From Nitrosarchaeum sp. (GTDB lineage: Archaea; Thermoproteota; Nitrososphaeria; Nitrososphaerales; Nitrosopumilaceae), in assembly GCA_025699025.1 (NCBI GenBank), contig JAILWJ010000002.1:124001-188000 (forward strand): DNA of 64,000 nucleotides, read 5' to 3'. A model generated the notes under the pieces. It ran no database searches. It saw only the letters and a program-made list of their open reading frames with translations, and had not been told where the DNA came from. A program made the position numbers and the translations under genes. Of the stretch, positions 31,650 to 44,773 are shown piece by piece. Position 1 is the stretch's first letter. Every line of letters starts with the position of its first letter.

Positions 31650-32690
31650 CTATTCTTCATCAAGAATCAGTTTTGACATTGTGACATCTGTTGGAATTTT
31701 TTGCTCAACTGCATATGCAATAGCAGCTAAATTTCTTACTTCAAAAGCAGTTAACTTTGTAATTCCAATGATTGTCGCAAAACTGAACATTTTTGTGAAT
31801 GCTCTTGCAGATGAATGATATAATGCCACCTCAAATGCTCTCTCAAATTCAGATACTGCATCTAATTCATTTTCAATCTGTGGAATCATAATCTTGTATT
31901 TTGTATTTGTGAGTTCATTGAATGCATCCCTCACTGTAGCAGCTGATATCATTCTTCCCAACAATTCTCTTGGAATGGTTGGAGTCTGAGTTACAATCAA
32001 ATCTTGAATTTGTGATTCATCCAATCCCCAAAACTTTCCTCTAATCACACTTAGAAGATTGTAATAATCAATATCCATACCGACTAGCTTGATGACATCG
32101 TTATCTCTGGAATTTTTTACAGCACGACCAAGCTGTTGATATAATATTTTATCAAAATAAATATCAAAAATCTGAATATTTTTTCTCTCATTGTATAGTG
32201 CAGCAGCTTTAGCAATTTCTTCTCCAAATTGTACAGAGTTCAAACTAGCCACTGCTTCTTCAAGGTCTTTTGCAACCAATGCCTTGATTATGATATCTCT
32301 TTGTTTTACCAGTTCTTCTGCACGAAGATTAATGTGAGTCTCAATTGCTTCTTGGGTCTTGCCTAATACTTTTCCTTTTAGAATTAATTTCAAATTTGAA
32401 ATGATAAATTTCATAAAATAAGCATCCAAAATATCTGAATCTCCTGCAGTTTTTGCAATAGAATAATGCATCTCTGCAAGATGACCTCTTAATGCTGATT
32501 CAATACCCTGTGACGTGTATGGTTTCTGGACTTCAGTAATTGAATCTCCATATACTGTATTTTTAATTCTAGTCATCAACTCCTCAAGATCCCTTGACTC
32601 TGCAAGTGTCTGATAATCTACTCTTTTGAGTAGTTTGCCTCTTTGACTGTATGATTTTACAGACGCATAGACATTTTTGGAGCGACCCAT
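31650..32690 (-). CDS. atpC: A-type ATP synthase subunit C
   Basis: A 346-aa AC39/subunit d homologue that links the central stalk to the membrane rotor. The N-terminus GRSKNVYASVKSYSQRGKLL and later segments FEVALYHSSARAFTKMFSFA and FEVRNLAAIAYAVEQKIP match the family. It is separated from the main atp operon by about 6 kb and is on the opposite strand. Confidence 0.88.
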   Translation of the reverse strand: MGRSKNVYASVKSYSQRGKLLKRVDYQTLAESRDLEELMTRIKNTVYGDSITEVQKPYTSQGIESALRGHLAEMHYSIAKTAGDSDILDAYFMKFIISNLKLILKGKVLGKTQEAIETHINLRAEELVKQRDIIIKALVAKDLEEAVASLNSVQFGEEIAKAAALYNERKNIQIFDIYFDKILYQQLGRAVKNSRDNDVIKLVGMDIDYYNLLSVIRGKFWGLDESQIQDLIVTQTPTIPRELLGRMISAATVRDAFNELTNTKYKIMIPQIENELDAVSEFERAFEVALYHSSARAFTKMFSFATIIGITKLTAFEVRNLAAIAYAVEQKIPTDVTMSKLILDEE

Positions 32691-35228: not shown

Positions 35229-36005
35229 ATGTTCATTCAATCAAATGATTTATTACAAATTTTAAAAGATGAAAATTTGATAATTGTAGATACTAGATCA
35301 TTTAAGGAATATTCAGAAGGGCATATACCAAATTCTGTAAATCTAGATCTTTTTACATTTCACTGGATTGATACAACAAAGGAAGGAATTGAAAACTTTA
35401 ACAAACAAACACAGACGCTTCTTTCTTTTCTGGGTGTAACTTCAGAAAAGAAAGTTGTTTTTTATGATGATGTCTCAGGCATGCTTGCTGCAAGAGGTGT
35501 TTGGATGTTATTGTATTTTTCTCATGATGATGTTTCAATATTGGATGGAGGAATTCAAAAATGGAAAAAAGAAAATTATCCACTTGAAATAAAACCAAAT
35601 GGTTTCAAACCATCCAAATTTTTAGGTAAAATCAACTCCAACATTATTGCTGGTTTTGAATACATTAAAGAAAATCTAGATTCTGTTAGAGTTATTGATG
35701 CAAGATCGCAAGGAGAATATGCTGGTACCATCATACGTGCTGCTAAAAGCGGGCATATCCCAAATGCAATCAATATTGATTGGATCAACAACATCAACGA
35801 AGACGGGACATTCAAAAATAATGATGAATTATCTAAACTCTATGACATGCCCAAAAACTCTGAAATAATTACTTATTGTCAAGGTGCATATAGGGCTGCC
35901 AATACATTTCTTGTTTTAAAAAAACTTGGGTTTGAAAATGTTAGAGTTTACTTGGGCTCCTGGGGAGAATGGGGAAATAAATTAGAACTTCCTGTAGAAA
36001 AATAA
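35229..36005 (+). CDS. Two-domain rhodanese (thiosulfate/mercaptopyruvate sulfurtransferase)
   Basis: 258 aa with tandem rhodanese domains. The inactive N-terminal domain has IIVDTRSFKEYSEGHIPNSVN and the C-terminal one has VIDARSQGEYAG, GHIPNAINIDW and the active cysteine in TYCQGAYRAAN. The loop CQGAYR resembles CxxGxR of thiosulfate sulfurtransferases. It moves sulfane sulfur to cyanide or to thiol acceptors, or detoxifies. It stands 114 bp after amt; that gap holds a T-rich likely terminator (TTTCTTTTCTTCTTTTT) and little else. Confidence 0.87.
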   Translation: MFIQSNDLLQILKDENLIIVDTRSFKEYSEGHIPNSVNLDLFTFHWIDTTKEGIENFNKQTQTLLSFLGVTSEKKVVFYDDVSGMLAARGVWMLLYFSHDDVSILDGGIQKWKKENYPLEIKPNGFKPSKFLGKINSNIIAGFEYIKENLDSVRVIDARSQGEYAGTIIRAAKSGHIPNAINIDWINNINEDGTFKNNDELSKLYDMPKNSEIITYCQGAYRAANTFLVLKKLGFENVRVYLGSWGEWGNKLELPVEK

Positions 36006-36047: not shown

Positions 36048-36212
36048 ATGGGATTTTTAAAAAAGATCAAAGACACTGCAGAAAAAACCGTTGAAAAAGG
36101 AACAGATCTTGGAAAGAAAGGTGTAGAAAAGGGAGCTGAATTAGGTACCAAAGGTTATGATGGTGCTAAGGATGCTGCTAAAAAAGGACACGACAAGGCT
36201 AAGCAAGAATAA
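36048..36212 (+). CDS. 54-aa Lys/Glu/Gly-rich amphipathic repeat protein
   Basis: MGFLKKIKDTAEKTVEKGTD, then GKKGVEKGAELGTKGYDGAK, DAAKKGHDKAKQE. Degenerate 4-11-residue K-G/E repeats resemble LEA-type or YtxH/apolipoprotein-like amphipathic helices that bind membranes or protect proteins on stress. It lies 42 nt after the rhodanese stop and ends 17 nt before the convergent atpI stop. It is probably a real small protein. Confidence 0.6.
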   Translation: MGFLKKIKDTAEKTVEKGTDLGKKGVEKGAELGTKGYDGAKDAAKKGHDKAKQE

Positions 36213-36229: not shown

Positions 36230-38329
36230 TTACTTTTTTTTCCAGATAAATTGATTGTATATTAATTCAGGTCTAATTTGTCTGAATGGCTGTGATCCGC
36301 CGTCATACCATTTTGTGAAGAATTCATACAAATGCAATCTGAGTGACTGTATGTATACGATTAATCCCTCAATCATCATGATTCCCAAGTTTCCACCGAT
36401 GATCATTGCCCATGCACCAATAGATTCTGAACCTCCAAGTGAAACAAATGCGTTATTCACTGTGAGTAACAACGCGGCGTGGACCAATAACATGATTCCA
36501 AGTCGAGCATAACTAATTGTATGAGCTAAACTTTCAACTGTTTTGCCAAGAAATACTTCCATTACAACATTAGCCGCAGAACCTCCATCTTCTGGATGTC
36601 TCTTTGCATGCAAAATTCCACCAATCATCATCATTGCCATTGAGGCAATGACAATTACTACTGCAATTCTGGTTACGATCCACACTTGTGCCCAATCTCC
36701 TAGGAATATTGTGACCCATGGCACTGCTTCATTATGAACTTTGGAATACATGTTCATTACATCATATTGTGAGCCTATTGCACACATCATGATCACTACA
36801 ATTCCTCCATACAGTGTGATGTTTGGAATTGCCTCCATGTACATTACAAGTTTGTGTCCCTCATGTGCTAATCTTCTGATGCGCAAAACCATGGCCCAAA
36901 CAAGATGAATAATTCCTATGAATAATGAAACTTTGAGGATGTTGATTACTTGATCAAAGGTTAGTTCTGCAACACTAAGAATACCTACAATCCAACTTAC
37001 TGAATGTAGTGCTCCTCCCTCTTCTAAGAGTCCTTCAAATGGTCCCATATGATCAAGATGATAACCAAACATCTCTCCAGCACCTACACCTGCTATTGCA
37101 GCTGAAGCACCAGAAATTGCAATGAGCATTCCCCACCTTGAGAGATTTCCTTGTCCCTTGACTTTGAATAACAATCCCATTCCCATGAGTAATAATCCAT
37201 GACCCATGTCTGCAAACATCAATCCGTAAAATATTGGCCACATCAATGCAATCATAGGTGTTGGATCTGCCTCTCCCTTGTTGGGAATTCCTTGACTTTG
37301 TGTGATTACCTCAAATGTTCTAACAAATTTTTTATTATCAAATAGAACCGGAATCTGCTCTTTGTGTTTTGGTTCTGTAATATCTTCAACAACTGACATC
37401 CATTGTTTTGTAGAATCCTTGAATTTGGATTCCATTTTACTTGGGATAAATCCCTGAATTACTGCAAAGTTTTTTGTTCCTCCTGGTTTTCTTAAAGTTT
37501 CCAGAACCTCTTTTGCAACCAATGCTTCTTCATGTAAAATCAAAATATCTCGTCTAATCTTCTTTTTAATAGATGCAATCTGTTTTGCAACTGTTCCTTG
37601 TTTTGTTAGTAGTTCTTTGATTTTGGTATCAACCATTGTAAATGCTTCTGCTGGAACCTGAGGAATTCCCTCTGGTATGACAAATGGATTTGCATTGAAC
37701 CCACGAAGTACTTTTAGCGCTCTTTCTGAATCATCAATTCCACAAATCACAAGAATCGCTACTTTTTCTTTACTTGCCAAGTCATACTTGTAAAAAGTAA
37801 TCCCATCAAGTGCCCTGCTGATCTCTTCATAATCTGTAGAGTTGATTACAAAGAGATTTGTATAGAAATATTTCATCAAACCAAAACCTGACAAATTTAT
37901 GTTCAATTTCTTGGCAATTTCAAGAGTATCTTTTAGTGATCTATACTCTTCAAGCGATCGCCTTGTATTGGCTTCTTCTTCTAAGAGATGTGCTGGTTCA
38001 TCAATAATGGTTGGTACGCGTTTTTTGAGATCTTTTATCAAATTATCAATTTCATCAATTTCGTAATTACTTTTCTTGATTACAGTTCCCTTGAATAGAA
38101 TCTCCAAAATTCCTACGGTCAGCGGTACGCCTAAACCCTTGATTACCTCATCAATTGCCTGATATGTTTTTTGAGCCTCTAATAATAGATCATCAATTTC
38201 CGGCGTAACAAGATCGTTCTCCGAATCTATCTTGTGAAACCATTCAAACTCTGTAAGTCTTGAAATTGCTTTTGGAGATTCACTTCTCGGTAATATTACA
38301 CTCCCAAGTTTCAGATCTGCTACTACCAA
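36230..38329 (-). CDS. atpI: A-type ATP synthase subunit I (a-subunit)
   Basis: About 700 aa. The cytoplasmic N-terminal half starts VVADLKLGSVILPRSESPKA and has coiled coils near residues 85-150 and 255-310. The C-terminal half holds seven or eight membrane helices, including PTPMIALMWPIFYGLMFADM, and HTISYARLGIMLLVHAALLL carries the essential arginine of the proton half-channel. The frame is open to an ATG at 38389, but a TTG at 38329 sits 32 nt after a TATTAAAA box (38354-38361) and at the conserved start, so I prefer it. Confidence 0.9.
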   Translation of the reverse strand: MVVADLKLGSVILPRSESPKAISRLTEFEWFHKIDSENDLVTPEIDDLLLEAQKTYQAIDEVIKGLGVPLTVGILEILFKGTVIKKSNYEIDEIDNLIKDLKKRVPTIIDEPAHLLEEEANTRRSLEEYRSLKDTLEIAKKLNINLSGFGLMKYFYTNLFVINSTDYEEISRALDGITFYKYDLASKEKVAILVICGIDDSERALKVLRGFNANPFVIPEGIPQVPAEAFTMVDTKIKELLTKQGTVAKQIASIKKKIRRDILILHEEALVAKEVLETLRKPGGTKNFAVIQGFIPSKMESKFKDSTKQWMSVVEDITEPKHKEQIPVLFDNKKFVRTFEVITQSQGIPNKGEADPTPMIALMWPIFYGLMFADMGHGLLLMGMGLLFKVKGQGNLSRWGMLIAISGASAAIAGVGAGEMFGYHLDHMGPFEGLLEEGGALHSVSWIVGILSVAELTFDQVINILKVSLFIGIIHLVWAMVLRIRRLAHEGHKLVMYMEAIPNITLYGGIVVIMMCAIGSQYDVMNMYSKVHNEAVPWVTIFLGDWAQVWIVTRIAVVIVIASMAMMMIGGILHAKRHPEDGGSAANVVMEVFLGKTVESLAHTISYARLGIMLLVHAALLLTVNNAFVSLGGSESIGAWAMIIGGNLGIMMIEGLIVYIQSLRLHLYEFFTKWYDGGSQPFRQIRPELIYNQFIWKKK

Positions 38330-38418
38330 GATAATCCAACGTATTTCCTTTGATTTTAATATCTTTCTGAATTGGAAACTCCCAAACATTAAAATCCATT
38401 ACGGATTTACGGCACTCA

Positions 38419-39018
38419 TTGGAATCTAGTTCTGCATTAGAAACTACTATTGACAAAATCCTCGATCAAACTCAAAAAAACATTCTATCAAGCATAAATT
38501 TAGCCCTAACAGATGCTCAAAAGACCCTAGATAATGCAATTCCTAGACTAGAGCAAGAATATGATAAAATCATATCAGATGGGAAAAAAGAGGCAGATAA
38601 GATACAAAAACAGATCGTTGGTAGTTCTGATCTTGAAGCAAGAAACAAACATCTTTTGGCATTAGAAAAGGCCGTCGAGAACGTCTTTACTAAAGCACTT
38701 GAACAAATTGCTAATGCCCAACGCAATGGGGATTATGCTAATTTGATAAAATCACTCTTAGAAAAATCTACAAATATCTTAGGAACCACGCAAGTAATAG
38801 TTTATACAAATTCCAAGGATAAAGATCTGGTCAAATCCACCCTTTCACAATTTTCTGGGGCAGAACTATCTGCTGAAACAATTGATTGTCTTGGTGGTGT
38901 TATTGTTAAATCAAAAGATGGTGCAATGACTTTTGATAATACTATTGATGCAAGGATTGAACGTCTGAAGCCTTTAATAAGGAAAGAAATTGCATCAAAA
39001 TTCGGAGTAGGGAATTAG
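38419..39018 (+). CDS. atpE: A-type ATP synthase subunit E
   Basis: A 199-aa peripheral-stalk subunit. The N-terminal half is a long coiled coil ([20 protein letters not shown] and [21 protein letters not shown]), and the globular C-terminal domain has [18 protein letters not shown] and [23 protein letters not shown], family hallmarks. The start is TTG, about 30 nt after an ATTAAAAT box. It leads the E-A-B-D operon; the next gene starts one base after its stop. Confidence 0.9.
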
Positions 39019-39019
39019 G

Positions 39020-40798
39020 ATGGCAGCTCAAGGTAGAATTGTTTGGGTCAGTGGACCTGCAGTAAAAGCAGATGGAATGTCTGCCGCAAAAATGTATGAA
39101 ACCGTAGTGGTTGGAAACTCCAAACTAGTCGGCGAAGTAATTAGATTGACGGGCGATGTTGCATTTATTCAAGTATACGAGTCAACAAGTGGATTGAAGC
39201 CAGGCGAACCAGTAGTTGGCACTGGAAATCCACTCAGTGTTTTATTAGGACCTGGGATTATTGGTCAGCTTTATGATGGAATTCAAAGACCATTAAGAGA
39301 ATTATCCAAGGCCTCAGGCTCATTTATCGGTAGAGGTATTACCACTACTCCAGTTGACATGACAAAGAAATATCACTTTGTTCCAACTGTTAAAAATGGT
39401 GATGTAGTTCATCCCGGAAATGTTATTGGAACTGTTCAGGAAACAGACCTTATAGAACACTCCATCATGGTTCCACCAGATCATCCCGGAGGTGTTGTCT
39501 CAAATATTGTATCTGAAGGAGATTATGATCTAGAAACTGAAATTGCAAAAACAGAGAAAGATGGAAAATCCATCACACTCAAAATGTATCACAAATGGCC
39601 TGTTAGAAAACCACGTCCTTACAAAGATCGGTACGATCCCACAGTTCCACTTTTAACTGGTCAACGTGTAATTGATACATTTTTCCCCATTGCAAAAGGT
39701 GGAACAGGCTCAATTCCAGGTGCATTTGGTACAGGAAAAACTGTAACACTTCACCAAATTGCAAAATGGGCAGATTCTCAAGTTGTGGTTTACATTGGTT
39801 GCGGTGAACGTGGAAATGAAATGACCGAGGTACTAGTCGAATTTCCACATCTAAAAGATCCACGAAGTGGAAAACCACTGATGGATAGAACTGTACTTGT
39901 AGCAAATACAAGTAACATGCCAGTAGCTGCAAGAGAAGCAAGCATCTACACTGGTGTAACAATTGCAGAATATTATAGAGACATGGGAAAAGATGTTGTA
40001 CTTGTAGCAGACTCAACCAGCAGATGGGCAGAAGCACTCAGAGAAATGAGTGGAAGATTAGAAGAGATGCCTGCTGAAGAAGGATACCCATCATATCTTG
40101 CATCAAGATTAGCAGAATTTTACGAAAGAGCAGGTCGTGTCAGAGCAATGGGTAGTCCAGACCGTGATGGTTCCGTTACTCTTGTTGGAGCAGTTTCTCC
40201 ATCAGGTGGAGACTTTACTGAACCAGTTACAACTCATACAATGAGATTTATCAAAACTTTTTGGGCTCTAGACGCAAAACTTGCGTATTCTAGACACTAT
40301 CCATCAATCAACTGGATGAATAGCTATTCAGGATATCTGGCAGATATTTCCAAATGGTGGGGAGAAAACATCAATGGAGACTGGCTTAGTCTACGAAGCG
40401 AAGCTTATGGAGTTTTACAAAGAGAAGATACTCTTAAAGAAATTGTTAGACTATTAGGCCCAGAAGCACTTCCAGACGAAGAAAAATTAATTCTTGAAGT
40501 TGCAAGAATGATAAAAATTGGCTTGTTACAACAAAACTCATTTGATGATGTTGATACGTACTGTAGTCCAGAAAAACAATACAAATTACTCAAACTATTA
40601 GTTGATTTCTATAGGAAAGGACAACAGGCACTAAAGGAAGGTGCAGAACTTTCGGATATTCGTGCAATGGGAGTTATTGGTTCAATGCTTAAAGCAAGAA
40701 TGGAGGTCAAAGATGATGAGATGGCAAAACTTGAACAATTAGACAAAGACATGCAAGAACAATTCAAAGCAATTACAGGAGTTAAAGTATCAAATTGA
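39020..40798 (+). CDS. atpA: A-type ATP synthase catalytic subunit A
   Basis: 592 aa. The catalytic P-loop GAFGTGKT is at residues 234-241, [17 protein letters not shown] follows, and [20 protein letters not shown] is the Walker B region. The family-specific non-homologous insert (about residues 115-190) is present and no intein interrupts the P-loop. It binds and makes ATP at the head with subunit B. Its stop overlaps the atpB TTG by three bases. Confidence 0.96.
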
Positions 40799-42177
40799 CC
40801 GAAGGCGGAGTACAATACAGCAAAATTGCAGAGATTAAGGGCCCACTGGTAATCGTCGATGATGTAGAGAATGCAGCATTTGATGAATTAGTTGAAATTG
40901 AAACTAGAGAAGGCGAACGAAGATTAGGCAAAGTTCTTGAAGTTGGGAATGGCAAAGCTATTGTTCAAGTGTTTGAAGGAACAACTGGACTGTCCATTTC
41001 TGGCACTAATGCAAAGTTTGTTGGCAAAGTTATGGAAATGCCAGTTTCTAAAGAGGTACTTGGTAGAGTCTTTGATGGATTAGGTAGGCCCAAAGATGGG
41101 CTTCCGGATCCAATTGCTGATAAATTTATTGATATTAATGGTGAGCCGATGAATCCTGAACAACGCGAATACCCAAAGGACTTCATTCAAACTGGCGTTT
41201 CTGTAATTGATGGAATGATTACTCTAGTTAGAGGTCAAAAACTGCCGATTTTTTCTGGCTCTGGCATGTCTCATAATTTATTGGCAGCACAAATCGCAAG
41301 ACAGGCAAGTGTTGTTGGTACACAAGATGATTTTGCTGTAGTTTTTGCTGCAATAGGCGTGCAATATAGTGAAGCAGAATACTTTAGAAGAAGTCTCGAA
41401 GAATCTGGTGCACTAAAGAGAAGTGTTTTATTCCTTAACTTGGCTGATGATCCAGCAATTGAAAGAATCATCACTCCTCGTGTGGCATTAACTGTGGCAG
41501 AATATCTTGCATTTGATCTTGGAATGCACGTTCTAGTAATTCTTACTGATATGACCAACTATGCAGAGGCTCTTAGAGAAATTAGTGCAGCAAGGGAAGA
41601 AGTTCCAGGAAGAAAAGGCTATCCCGGTTATCTTTACACTGATCTTTCAACAATTTATGAAAGAGCAGGCAAATTAAATGGAAAGAAAGGAAGTGTTACA
41701 CAGGTTCCTATACTGTCAATGCCTTCTGATGATATTACTCATCCAATTCCAGATCTAACTGGCTATATCACAGAAGGTCAGATTGTGCTTGGAAGAGATC
41801 TATTTAGACAAGGAGTATATCCACCTGTCAACATTTTGATGAGTCTTAGTAGATTAATGAAAGATGGAATAGGTGAAGGCAGTACAAGAGCAGATCATGG
41901 TGAAATATCAAACCAGAACTATGATGCATACTCTCGAGCACAAGAAGTCAGAGCACTTGCAGGAATTGTAGGTAAGGCTGGATTGACAGAGATTGATCTG
42001 AAATACATGGATGTGGGTGACGTATTTGAAAAAGAATTCCTTTCACAAGCAACTGATGAAAATAGAACGATTGATGAAACTCTCAGCATTCTATGGAAAG
42101 TTGTATCTAAACTTCCAAAGAATGAGTTGACCAAAGTCAAAGATAAATTCGTAGAGCAATATTATCAGGAAAAGTAG
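40795..42177 (+). CDS. atpB: A-type ATP synthase subunit B
   Basis: The 460-aa non-catalytic nucleotide-binding subunit. The P-loop is replaced by FSGSGMSHN as usual for B subunits, with [20 protein letters not shown] and [20 protein letters not shown] downstream and [20 protein letters not shown] near residue 320. The start is TTG overlapping the atpA stop (TTGA), indicating coupled translation. Confidence 0.96.
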
Positions 42178-42181
42178 CAAA

Positions 42182-42814
42182 ATGTCATTTGGACAGAATG
42201 TAGCTGCAACAAAAATTGAACTTCTCAAATACAAGCGATCTAAACAAGTTGCCTCCATGGTCCAAAAAATTCTAGACGACAAACGTAAAGTTCTTTTAAA
42301 AAATATTGAAGAAATGATTGAAGAAGCATCAAAGGCCAGAGGTGGAATATGGGAGCCATTGCAAGACATCTACAAATCAGTCAATGAAGCATATCTGGCT
42401 TTAGGAACATCAACTGTCGATTCTGTAGCAGAATCTACACCTCCAGTTATGGAGGTAGAAGTTAAAGTTAGACGTGTGGTAGATGTTAAAATTCCAGCAT
42501 TATCAGTAACTGAAAAAGACACTAAATCAATGCCTTATGGATTTGCTGATACAAATTCTTCTATAGATAGAGCCGCCAAACAAATCAAAGAACTCCTCCC
42601 AAAAATCTGCAAGGCCGCAGAATATGAAAATTCAATTTTCAGTCTTGCAAAGGCACTTGAAAAAACACAAAAACTCCTAAACGCCCTTGAAAATGTAATT
42701 ATTCCCCAATATCAACATAGAATTAGATTCATTCTTGCAACTCTGGAGGAGAGGGAACGAGAGGAATTCGCAAAGTTAAAAAAAGTAAAGGCAAAGATGG
42801 AGAGTAGGAAGTAA
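42182..42814 (+). CDS. atpD: A-type ATP synthase subunit D (central stalk)
   Basis: 210 aa. Family segments are the N-terminal NVAATKIELLKYKRSKQVAS and the C-terminal RVNALE-like run KLLNALENVIIPQYQHRIRF followed by LEEREREEFAKLKKVK. The protein is two long antiparallel helices that turn within the A3B3 head. The gene lies 4 nt after atpB. Its stop overlaps the next ATG by one base. Confidence 0.93.
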   Translation: MSFGQNVAATKIELLKYKRSKQVASMVQKILDDKRKVLLKNIEEMIEEASKARGGIWEPLQDIYKSVNEAYLALGTSTVDSVAESTPPVMEVEVKVRRVVDVKIPALSVTEKDTKSMPYGFADTNSSIDRAAKQIKELLPKICKAAEYENSIFSLAKALEKTQKLLNALENVIIPQYQHRIRFILATLEEREREEFAKLKKVKAKMESRK

Positions 42815-42945
42815 TGGCAAAAGAAGAGATTAAAAAATTAGTTGAAGATTCTAAAAAACAGTTAGATCTAGAACATGAAAATTTTGCAAAATCCATCAAA
42901 CATGATTTGGCATCATTCAAAAAGAAAACCCTCGATCGAATTTGA
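42814..42945 (+). CDS. 43-aa coiled-coil ORF inside the ATP synthase operon
   Basis: MAKEEIKKLVEDSKKQLDLE followed by a helical, Lys/Glu-rich remainder ending in KKKTLDRI. The ATG overlaps the atpD stop (TAATG), so it should be translated. It is one predicted amphipathic helix with heptad-like hydrophobics. It sits between D and K, where other archaea encode or place stalk genes, and neither subunit H nor F is found in this window. It might be a shortened H-like stalk peptide, or an unrelated regulator. No known family is assigned. Confidence 0.6.
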   Translation: MAKEEIKKLVEDSKKQLDLEHENFAKSIKHDLASFKKKTLDRI

Positions 42946-42964: not shown

Positions 42965-42980
42965 TTTAAATATGGAACTA
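42965..42980 (+). promoter_or_regulatory. Promoter of atpK with a shared 16-mer
   Basis: TTTAAATATGGAACTA begins 34 nt before the atpK ATG, giving atpK its own TATA box within the ATPase operon. The identical 16 bases occur at 55188-55203 before another start codon. An AAAGGAG ribosome-site-like stretch follows at 42980-42986. Confidence 0.5.
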
Positions 42981-42998: not shown

Positions 42999-43307
42999 AT
43001 GAAACCTATCGCATTGCTACTTTTGGCAGCAGCAGTAATATCCATTTCAGGATCTACTGGACTTGCATATGCAGCAGAGGGAGATGCAGCAGGAAGTTCT
43101 GACTCACTGAAAATTCTCGGTGCAGGTTTGGCATTCGGTCTTGCAGCTTTTGGTGCTGGTATAGGTTTAGGTCAAGTAGGTGCAGCCGGTCTTGCTGTCA
43201 TTAGTGAGAATCCAGCATTACAGTCAAAAGTATTCATCTTCGTAGGTATGGTCGAATCAATCGCTATCTACGGTATAGTCATGATGTTTATCATCCTGGG
43301 ACAATAG
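42999..43307 (+). CDS. atpK: A-type ATP synthase rotor ring subunit K (c-subunit)
   Basis: 102 aa: a signal peptide (IALLLLAAAVISISGSTGLAYA, cut before AEGDAAGSS) and one helical hairpin. Helix 1 is GAGLAFGLAAFGAGIGLGQV; the loop has SENPALQ; helix 2, VFIFVGMVESIAIYGIVMMF, carries the ion-binding glutamate (VES). A cleavable leader on a c-subunit is unusual but known in some archaea. A separate promoter probably gives the higher dose needed for the ring. Confidence 0.93.
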   Translation: MKPIALLLLAAAVISISGSTGLAYAAEGDAAGSSDSLKILGAGLAFGLAAFGAGIGLGQVGAAGLAVISENPALQSKVFIFVGMVESIAIYGIVMMFIILGQ

Positions 43308-43341: not shown

Positions 43342-43803
43342 TTAATTATATTTTAACTTGTTAACATCTAAAACTCTTGAACAATACCTGCATTTTAAAA
43401 CTCGACCTTCCTTATCTATGACATCCATTACTGATTCAATGTGTTCATTACTGTTTGTTATGCAGTCAGGATTGGAACAACGGAAAATTCTATCAATCTC
43501 ATTTGGAAGTGAAACTCTTCTTTTTTCCACCAGTTTGTAGTCCTTAATGATGTTGATGGTTGCTTTGGAGGCAATTACTGCCAATTTGTTTGTATCATCG
43601 TCTTTGAGAAATTTATTTTCCACTTTAATGATGTCCTTTTTCTTGAACTTTCCGCTGGGCACGTTAAGTGCTATGGTGATCAAACTTCCATCCCTGCCGT
43701 CAATTCTTAGGGCATTAAGGACCTGGAGACCTTTACCTTCGTCGATATGGTCAATAACAGTTCCTTCCTTTATTCGTCGAACCAAAAGTTCGGACTGTTC
43801 CAT
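43342..43803 (-). CDS. pyrI: Aspartate carbamoyltransferase regulatory chain
   Basis: 153 aa. It begins MEQSELLVRRIKEGTVIDHI, the normal PyrI start, and ends with a zinc domain CSNPDCITN...KCRYC (C-x4-C, C-x2-C). It binds nucleotide effectors and tunes the catalytic chain. The frame is open to a GTG at 43824, but only the ATG at 43803 lies a proper 33 nt after the TAATATAT box at 43829-43836. It is divergent from pyrB rather than in the usual pyrBI order. Confidence 0.92.
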   Translation of the reverse strand: MEQSELLVRRIKEGTVIDHIDEGKGLQVLNALRIDGRDGSLITIALNVPSGKFKKKDIIKVENKFLKDDDTNKLAVIASKATINIIKDYKLVEKRRVSLPNEIDRIFRCSNPDCITNSNEHIESVMDVIDKEGRVLKCRYCSRVLDVNKLKYN

Positions 43804-43812
43804 CAGAATACT

Positions 43813-43836
43813 TTGTATAGTCACCTGTATATATTA
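43813..43836. promoter_or_regulatory. Interlocked pyrB/pyrI divergent promoters
   Basis: TTTGTATA at 43813-43820 is 31 nt before the pyrB ATG. On the other strand, TAATATAT (43836-43829) is 33 nt before the pyrI ATG at 43803. The two TATA boxes point toward each other within 24 bp, so the start regions overlap. This is inferred from spacing. Confidence 0.45.
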
Positions 43837-43843
43837 TTGAAAG

Positions 43844-44773
43844 ATGAACGAGTTCTATCAAAAAGACATCATCTCAATTAAAGACTACAATAAAGAGCAA
43901 CTAGAGAAGATCTTTACAGCAACGGATAAGCTTATCCAATTGGATCCTTCCACCAGAAGAGAAATTTCAAAAGGCAAAACCATGGCGTATCTGTTTTATG
44001 AACCAAGTACTAGGACTCGATTAAGCTTTGATTCTGCAATGGCATCGATTGGTGGAAACTCACTAGGAATTTCTGATATATCCTCCTCTTCTACTCAAAA
44101 AGGAGAGAGTTTAGCAGATACTGTAAAAATTATGTCCATTTATTCTGATGCGCTTGTTCTTAGACACCCACTTGATGGCTCTAGTAGGTTTGCAGCTGAA
44201 ATATCTTCAAAACCTGTAATTAACGCTGGAAGTGGTACTGAAGAACATCCAACACAGGCAATTCAAGATCTGTATACCATAAGAAAGGAAAAGAAGAAGA
44301 TTGATGGATTAAAAATTGGAATTGTTGGGGACTTGAAATATGGCAGAACAGTCTACTCGCTTTTGTACGGACTTGGAAACTATGACGTTGATGTTCACCT
44401 GATTTCTCCTGAATCTCTCAAGATAAGATCTGATTCTGTTTATGAAATCAAAAAGAGACTATCATTTACGGAATCAACTAACATAGAGGAACACATAGAT
44501 GATCTTGATGTTCTATATGTGACTAGAATTCAAAAAGAACGATTCCCTGATGAGGAAGAATATCTAAAAGTAAAGGGAAGCTATGTTGTTGGATTGGATT
44601 TATTACAAAAGATGAAAGATACTGCTATCATCTTGCATCCGCTTCCAAGATTAGATGAAATTTCTCCTGATATTGATGGAACAAAAAATGCAAAATATTT
44701 TGAGCAGGCAGAATATGGAAAATATACAAGAGCTGCACTTTTGGGATTGACTCTTAATGAAAACGGTTTCTAA
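43844..44773 (+). CDS. pyrB: Aspartate carbamoyltransferase catalytic chain
   Basis: A 309-aa enzyme that makes carbamoyl-aspartate in pyrimidine synthesis. FYEPSTRTRLSFDSAMASIGG is the carbamoyl-phosphate loop, SSSTQKGESLADTVKI the neighbouring-subunit loop, EEHPTQAIQDLYTI the second signature and HPLPRLDEI the final one. It ends 42 nt before the Lon-domain gene, which has its own likely promoter. Confidence 0.95.
   Translation: MNEFYQKDIISIKDYNKEQLEKIFTATDKLIQLDPSTRREISKGKTMAYLFYEPSTRTRLSFDSAMASIGGNSLGISDISSSSTQKGESLADTVKIMSIYSDALVLRHPLDGSSRFAAEISSKPVINAGSGTEEHPTQAIQDLYTIRKEKKKIDGLKIGIVGDLKYGRTVYSLLYGLGNYDVDVHLISPESLKIRSDSVYEIKKRLSFTESTNIEEHIDDLDVLYVTRIQKERFPDEEEYLKVKGSYVVGLDLLQKMKDTAIILHPLPRLDEISPDIDGTKNAKYFEQAEYGKYTRAALLGLTLNENGF

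Follow-up and report, generated by a model that had tools for sequence, protein, structure and literature searches.

A conserved 43-residue protein encoded between atpD and atpK is a candidate additional small subunit of the A-type ATP synthase of ammonia-oxidizing archaea

Results

The window analysed here, a stretch of 64,000 nucleotides from a Nitrosarchaeum genome, carries genes for subunits C, I, E, A, B, D and K of an A-type ATP synthase, and neither F nor H was found within it. On the forward strand lie atpE (38419..39018, 199 aa; PF01991, 77.6 bits), atpA (39020..40798, 592 aa), atpB (40795..42177, 460 aa, which served as a tblastn query), atpD (42182..42814, 210 aa; PF01813, 177 bits) and the proteolipid gene atpK (42999..43307, 102 aa; PF00137, 65.7 bits). 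The reverse strand bears atpI (36230..38389, 719 aa, with tblastn matches to the I genes of related operons) and atpC (31650..32690, 346 aa; PF01992, 202 bits). Between atpD and atpK lies a 43-codon open reading frame (ORF) on the forward strand (42814-42945) that encodes MAKEEIKKLVEDSKKQLDLEHENFAKSIKHDLASFKKKTLDRI; its ATG shares one base with the TAA stop codon of atpD (TAATG), and 53 bases separate it from the start of atpK. Within this last interval is an archaeal TATA-like box, TTTAAATA (42965..42972, forward strand). The preliminary description of this DNA had placed the ORF in this overlap with atpD and ahead of atpK, and had listed the same seven subunits without F or H; the former is borne out, and the latter holds for the window only.

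By reading, without profile searches, the cluster is flanked by a sulfurtransferase-like gene on one side (35229-36005) and pyrI/pyrB-like genes on the other (43342-43824 on the reverse strand; 43844-44773), which is the constant setting of the atp operons of ammonia-oxidizing archaea (AOA) (PMC6863869). A repetitive Lys/Gly-rich ORF of 54 aa (MGFLKKIKDTAEKTVEKGTDLGKKGVEKG...; 36048-36212, forward strand) also occupies the gap that separates the sulfurtransferase-like gene from the 3' end of atpI; no Pfam match was found for it.

The preliminary description had suggested looking for the ORF with its TAATG junction in other AOA. The small gene is present in all 80 named AOA genomes or loci retrieved via atpD, being detected automatically in 79 of them, with the last (L245) having N bases within the small-gene stop codon; the product is exactly 43 aa long in 67 of these loci, and the same one-base overlap with atpD recurs in 46. 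A first search had recovered it at E<=3.2e-4 in 22 of 25 genomes of family f1. Dinucleotide shuffles of the same intervals yield an ORF by the same rule in 7.7 of 79, and the median dN/dS over 506 pairs of 80-97% nucleotide identity is 0.19, with 99.8% of the pairs falling below 1. The 43-codon ORF is a real protein-coding gene under purifying selection, a chance ORF being ruled out by conservation, selection and shuffles alike.

The TATA-like box is kept in 72 of 79 AOA loci, mostly 16-25 bases past the stop of the small gene and at the stop itself in 3 loci, against an expectation of about 0.01 per locus. Given its conserved place after that stop, atpK probably has a promoter of its own, which perhaps serves the high copy number of the c-ring, and the small gene would stay with the E-A-B-D transcript. 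Such a transcript would fit a component of the low-copy soluble part of the enzyme rather than of the c-ring part.

The association of the small gene with the A-type operon can be followed across the class. In the class sample, 73 family-f1 genomes contain it, and a threshold of E<=1e-3 yields no match among 16 V-type-only f1 genomes (genera g8 and g5), the counts of 73 A-type and 16 V-type-only genomes having been sorted by hand. Directly after atpD, the A-type genomes of f8 (Nitrososphaeraceae-like), as well as families f2, f3 and f10, show a homologue or a counterpart by position, and in two genomes with two atpD types each (G295 and G311) the small gene follows the A-type copy alone. It is linked to the A-type operon only; at that place a different small gene stands in the 17 V-type loci that were read directly. 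In all V-type-like AOA operons read (L252, L253 and L254-L270, in related genomes), the other ORF, of about 41-58 aa, overlaps the end of atpD or lies just after it, and precedes H; it is likely to form a single membrane helix and contains a motif resembling N-x-Q-[KR]-[KR]-F (e.g., LPNFVNQQQRKFFLIIRAFKLGNILGTVALALYAGKHFFGV). Pfam returned no match for it, and NCBIfam gave only weak, non-significant matches for one of two tested; we presume that it might be comparable to ntpH of Enterococcus hirae.

Across Thermoproteota, every one of the 59 D loci followed by K within 1.2 kb in the same orientation (14 families; related loci, with ORFs recognised by inspection) has a Lys/Glu-rich ORF of 32-60 aa between D and K, the shortest being a single case (L112); the many other Thermoproteota in which D is not followed by K are uninformative in this respect. 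Nine of the 59 loci are Sulfolobaceae-like (f35, L032-L040), and the ORF there is the epsilon subunit (PF08112), with L040 scoring just under the curated cut-off. The gene order at locus L129 is F-A-B-D-epsilon-K. In families f26 and f18 the small ORF adjoins K rather than D. In one f18 locus (L148, G216) a gene that reads as UspA-like has been inserted after atpD and separates it from the small ORF; the latter still sits beside atpK.

Profile comparisons firmly support homology among the AOA small proteins (f1 against f8, E 1.8e-10, reversed control 0.0036; f1 against f2f3, E 9.7e-7, reversed control 0.021). They are suggestive of sequence homology to Sulfolobus epsilon (hhalign with the pooled AOA profile, E 4e-4 against 0.03 reversed; f1 alone, 0.002; another comparison, E 0.003 at a probability of 10%) and likewise to the small ORFs of basal Nitrososphaeria (E 6e-6, reversed 1.5e-4). 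The case for a common origin with epsilon would thus be mainly one of operon position. PF08112 matched neither the ORF nor any of 22 members of its family at E<=10, the 43-aa protein has no significant Pfam, NCBIfam or PDB match, and the PDB, when searched with profiles of the ORF, epsilon and H, returned only unrelated coiled coils or non-significant matches. A paralogous relationship to the N-terminal helix of E, which epsilon resembles by eye, was also considered and is not claimed: hhalign scored epsilon at E 0.001 (reversed control 0.013) and produced no match with the AOA protein. Our literature search turned up no account of the small protein of AOA, nor any structure or function for the epsilon of Sulfolobus, whose role has, to our knowledge, not been established.

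The preliminary description had regarded F and H as missing from this operon and had proposed a search of the rest of the genome, and that search (1.7 Mb in 4 contigs, 99.99% complete) located both. The F gene (97 aa) is on contig C1, where PF01990 matches G000:C1:259848-260087 at 52.9 bits, above the curated cut-off. An H-type gene of 111 aa lies on the reverse strand of contig C3 (G000:C3:396220-396552); the H profile TIGR02926 matches C3:396265-396459 at E 4.5e-5, the protein finds its best NCBIfam matches, each short of the cut-off, in two models of H, NF006256 (2.3e-8) and AhaH (2.1e-5), and alignment shows the ORF to be conserved. When the profile of this H-type family was run on 150 genomes of the class, an unlinked gene was found in all A-type f8 genomes sampled and in 72 of the 73 A-type f1 genomes bearing the 43-aa gene, the exception (G312) being a draft; in V-type-only genomes (G011, G307, G309, G314, G317, G322, G280) the matches adjoin the operon atpD, the V-type place of H. 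In related genomes the same profile detects H genes that open the operon at its 5' end (L116, 5.7e-22; L119, 1.2e-16; L122, 2.5e-14). Since it finds both the unlinked genes and the operon H genes, we conclude that the H-type gene of this genome is of full length and has relocated away from the operon. In the genome of the window (C3) and a congener (L081 and L071) this gene adjoins one that reads as nascent polypeptide-associated complex-like. Wang et al. (2019) stated that a clear homologue of H had yet to be reported for neutrophilic AOA (PMC6863869), and a paper from 2020 (PMC7785015) names NVIE_018270 of Nitrososphaera viennensis as a 'putative ATPase subunit H', which could be matched here to neither gene.

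The order at L122 (G239, family f60) is H, C, (I reversed), F, E, A, B, D, a 46-aa ORF and K, an arrangement repeated at L127 (G262), where the ORF is of 41 aa. Thus, with H, F and the small ORF together in one operon, the small ORF is no stand-in for either and comes in addition to both. The 43-aa protein itself gave no match to the F domain PF01990 and no NCBIfam match to the H profiles TIGR02926 and NF006256, and a replacement of F is ruled out by the F gene on C1. The preliminary description had held that finding F and H of normal length elsewhere, along with a lack of conservation of the ORF, would tell against its proposal; the first has turned out to be true and the second false.

AlphaFold2 predicts the 43-aa protein as one helix of 41 residues (residues 2-42, pLDDT 96.6). 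Its hydrophobicity has a period of 3.75 residues with a power of 0.244 (99.9% of permutations lie below 0.193), although periodicity over 43 residues is poorly resolved, whereas the heptad power of the AOA proteins is about 0.01. The peaks are at 3.75 for f1, 3.74 for f8, 3.73 for f2, 3.71 for the Sulfolobaceae epsilon and 3.70 for f26, to be set beside 3.70 for the H family and 3.74 for the E helix among stalk components; part of the N-terminal helix of D also has a weak peak near 3.73. A period above 3.6 corresponds to right-handed coiling, and the 43-aa protein falls in the hendecad/quindecad range (3.67-3.75) rather than at the heptad value of 3.5. Right-handed coiling of this hendecad/quindecad kind is a hallmark of the E and G stalk subunits of the A-type enzyme (PMC6131620). 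The periodicity, poorly resolved as it is and with a weak peak in D as well, favours a stator partner. Subunit E is of the canonical kind: its N-terminal stalk helix is predicted to span about 96 residues, and its fold matches those of E subunits with solved structures.

Discussion

Taken together, these observations suggest that the 43-aa protein is probably an extra (tenth) small subunit, or a tightly bound accessory, of the A-type ATP synthase, occupying the position of epsilon in Sulfolobus. It would be made right after D by translational coupling, and its helix would then pack in a right-handed coiled coil, for which the E/H peripheral stalk or the collar (I, C) is the likeliest site; an extra helix there might add stiffness or lock the assembly of the stator. 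The status of a permanent subunit is inferred from these lines of evidence, and the location on the stalk is put forward more tentatively than that status. The preliminary description had offered two possibilities for the peptide, and it is the unrecognised stalk or regulatory subunit, in keeping with a conserved A-type-linked gene and a single helix of right-handed type, that stands, while the minimal H falls.

Several other roles may be envisaged for such a protein. It might be an assembly factor, for the D-containing rotor or for the joining of A1 to the stator, rather than a permanent subunit; the translational overlap with atpD would suit this, as would the structural record, our search having found no proteomic or structural evidence for the small protein within the complex, which also weighs against the subunit reading. 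The families in which the ORF stands beside K rather than D (f26 and f18) indicate, however, that the tie to D is not strict, and this account is on the whole unlikely. A small helical regulator that blocks wasteful ATP hydrolysis, in the manner of the mitochondrial IF1 or the alphaproteobacterial zeta subunit, would be expected to be small, to form a single helix and to be co-expressed with the catalytic subunits, as the operon implies here, and might be of use to AOA, which live on little energy; yet the constant length and the D-coupled start suggest a partner of fixed stoichiometry, and an inhibitor is likewise unlikely. That the ORF is a leader peptide or regulatory uORF for atpK, with no function as a protein, could be read from its position just upstream of that gene, but is very improbable in view of the purifying selection on its amino-acid sequence, its conserved length and the TATA-like box past its stop, which would put it outside the main atpK transcript. 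The weakest reading, a minimal H pairing alone with E, has in its favour a short coiled-coil-type helix with a stalk-like right-handed period and a profile that weakly resembles columns 55-92 of H (E 0.0016, reversed control 0.0096), and is rejected as scarcely credible because a separate 111-aa H-type gene exists in this genome and its counterpart in nearly all the other A-type genomes sampled, H and the small ORF coexist in one operon, and the roughly 96-residue helix of E, far beyond the pairing reach of 43 aa, needs a full-length H.

The notion of an additional subunit or accessory can be taken a step further, with less assurance. The protein may be a tenth stoichiometric subunit of the stator, ancestral in the A-type enzymes of Thermoproteota and forming a third helix on the E/H stalk or the collar, that was lost when AOA swapped to the V-type-like enzyme; we regard this as conceivable rather than likely. 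If true, it would mean that there is an ancestral tenth subunit known so far only as the epsilon of Sulfolobus and overlooked elsewhere because of its size of 40-60 aa. The subunit lists of the ATP synthase of AOA, organisms abundant in oceans and soils, are incomplete, as the lack of a clear H homologue in the 2019 study (PMC6863869) illustrates. A 111-aa H candidate is placed here away from the operon, and a candidate small extra subunit whose position is common across Thermoproteota turns the role of Sulfolobus epsilon into a directly testable structural question in several organisms.

A parallel may finally be drawn with the known subunits of these enzymes. With subunit F (PF01990) the 43-aa protein shares only that F is encoded with the ATP synthase genes in other archaea, F being an unrelated domain of 97 aa encoded elsewhere in this genome. 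With subunit H/G (AhaH, NtpF) it shares a helical nature, the right-handed periodicity of the stalk type and an encoding along with the ATP synthase, but H is about 105-115 aa long and has its separate gene in the same genome. The closest likeness is to Sulfolobus epsilon (PF08112, ATP-synt_E_2): although the PF08112 profile does not match the AOA protein, which at 43 aa is some 9-16 residues shorter than the roughly 52-59 aa of epsilon yet of similar size, both lie between D and K with a start that overlaps the end of D, both are all-helical and Lys/Glu-rich with the same hydrophobic period of 3.7 residues, and both end in a similar C-terminus (IKRKALKEI in epsilon and FKKKTLDRI in the 43-aa protein).
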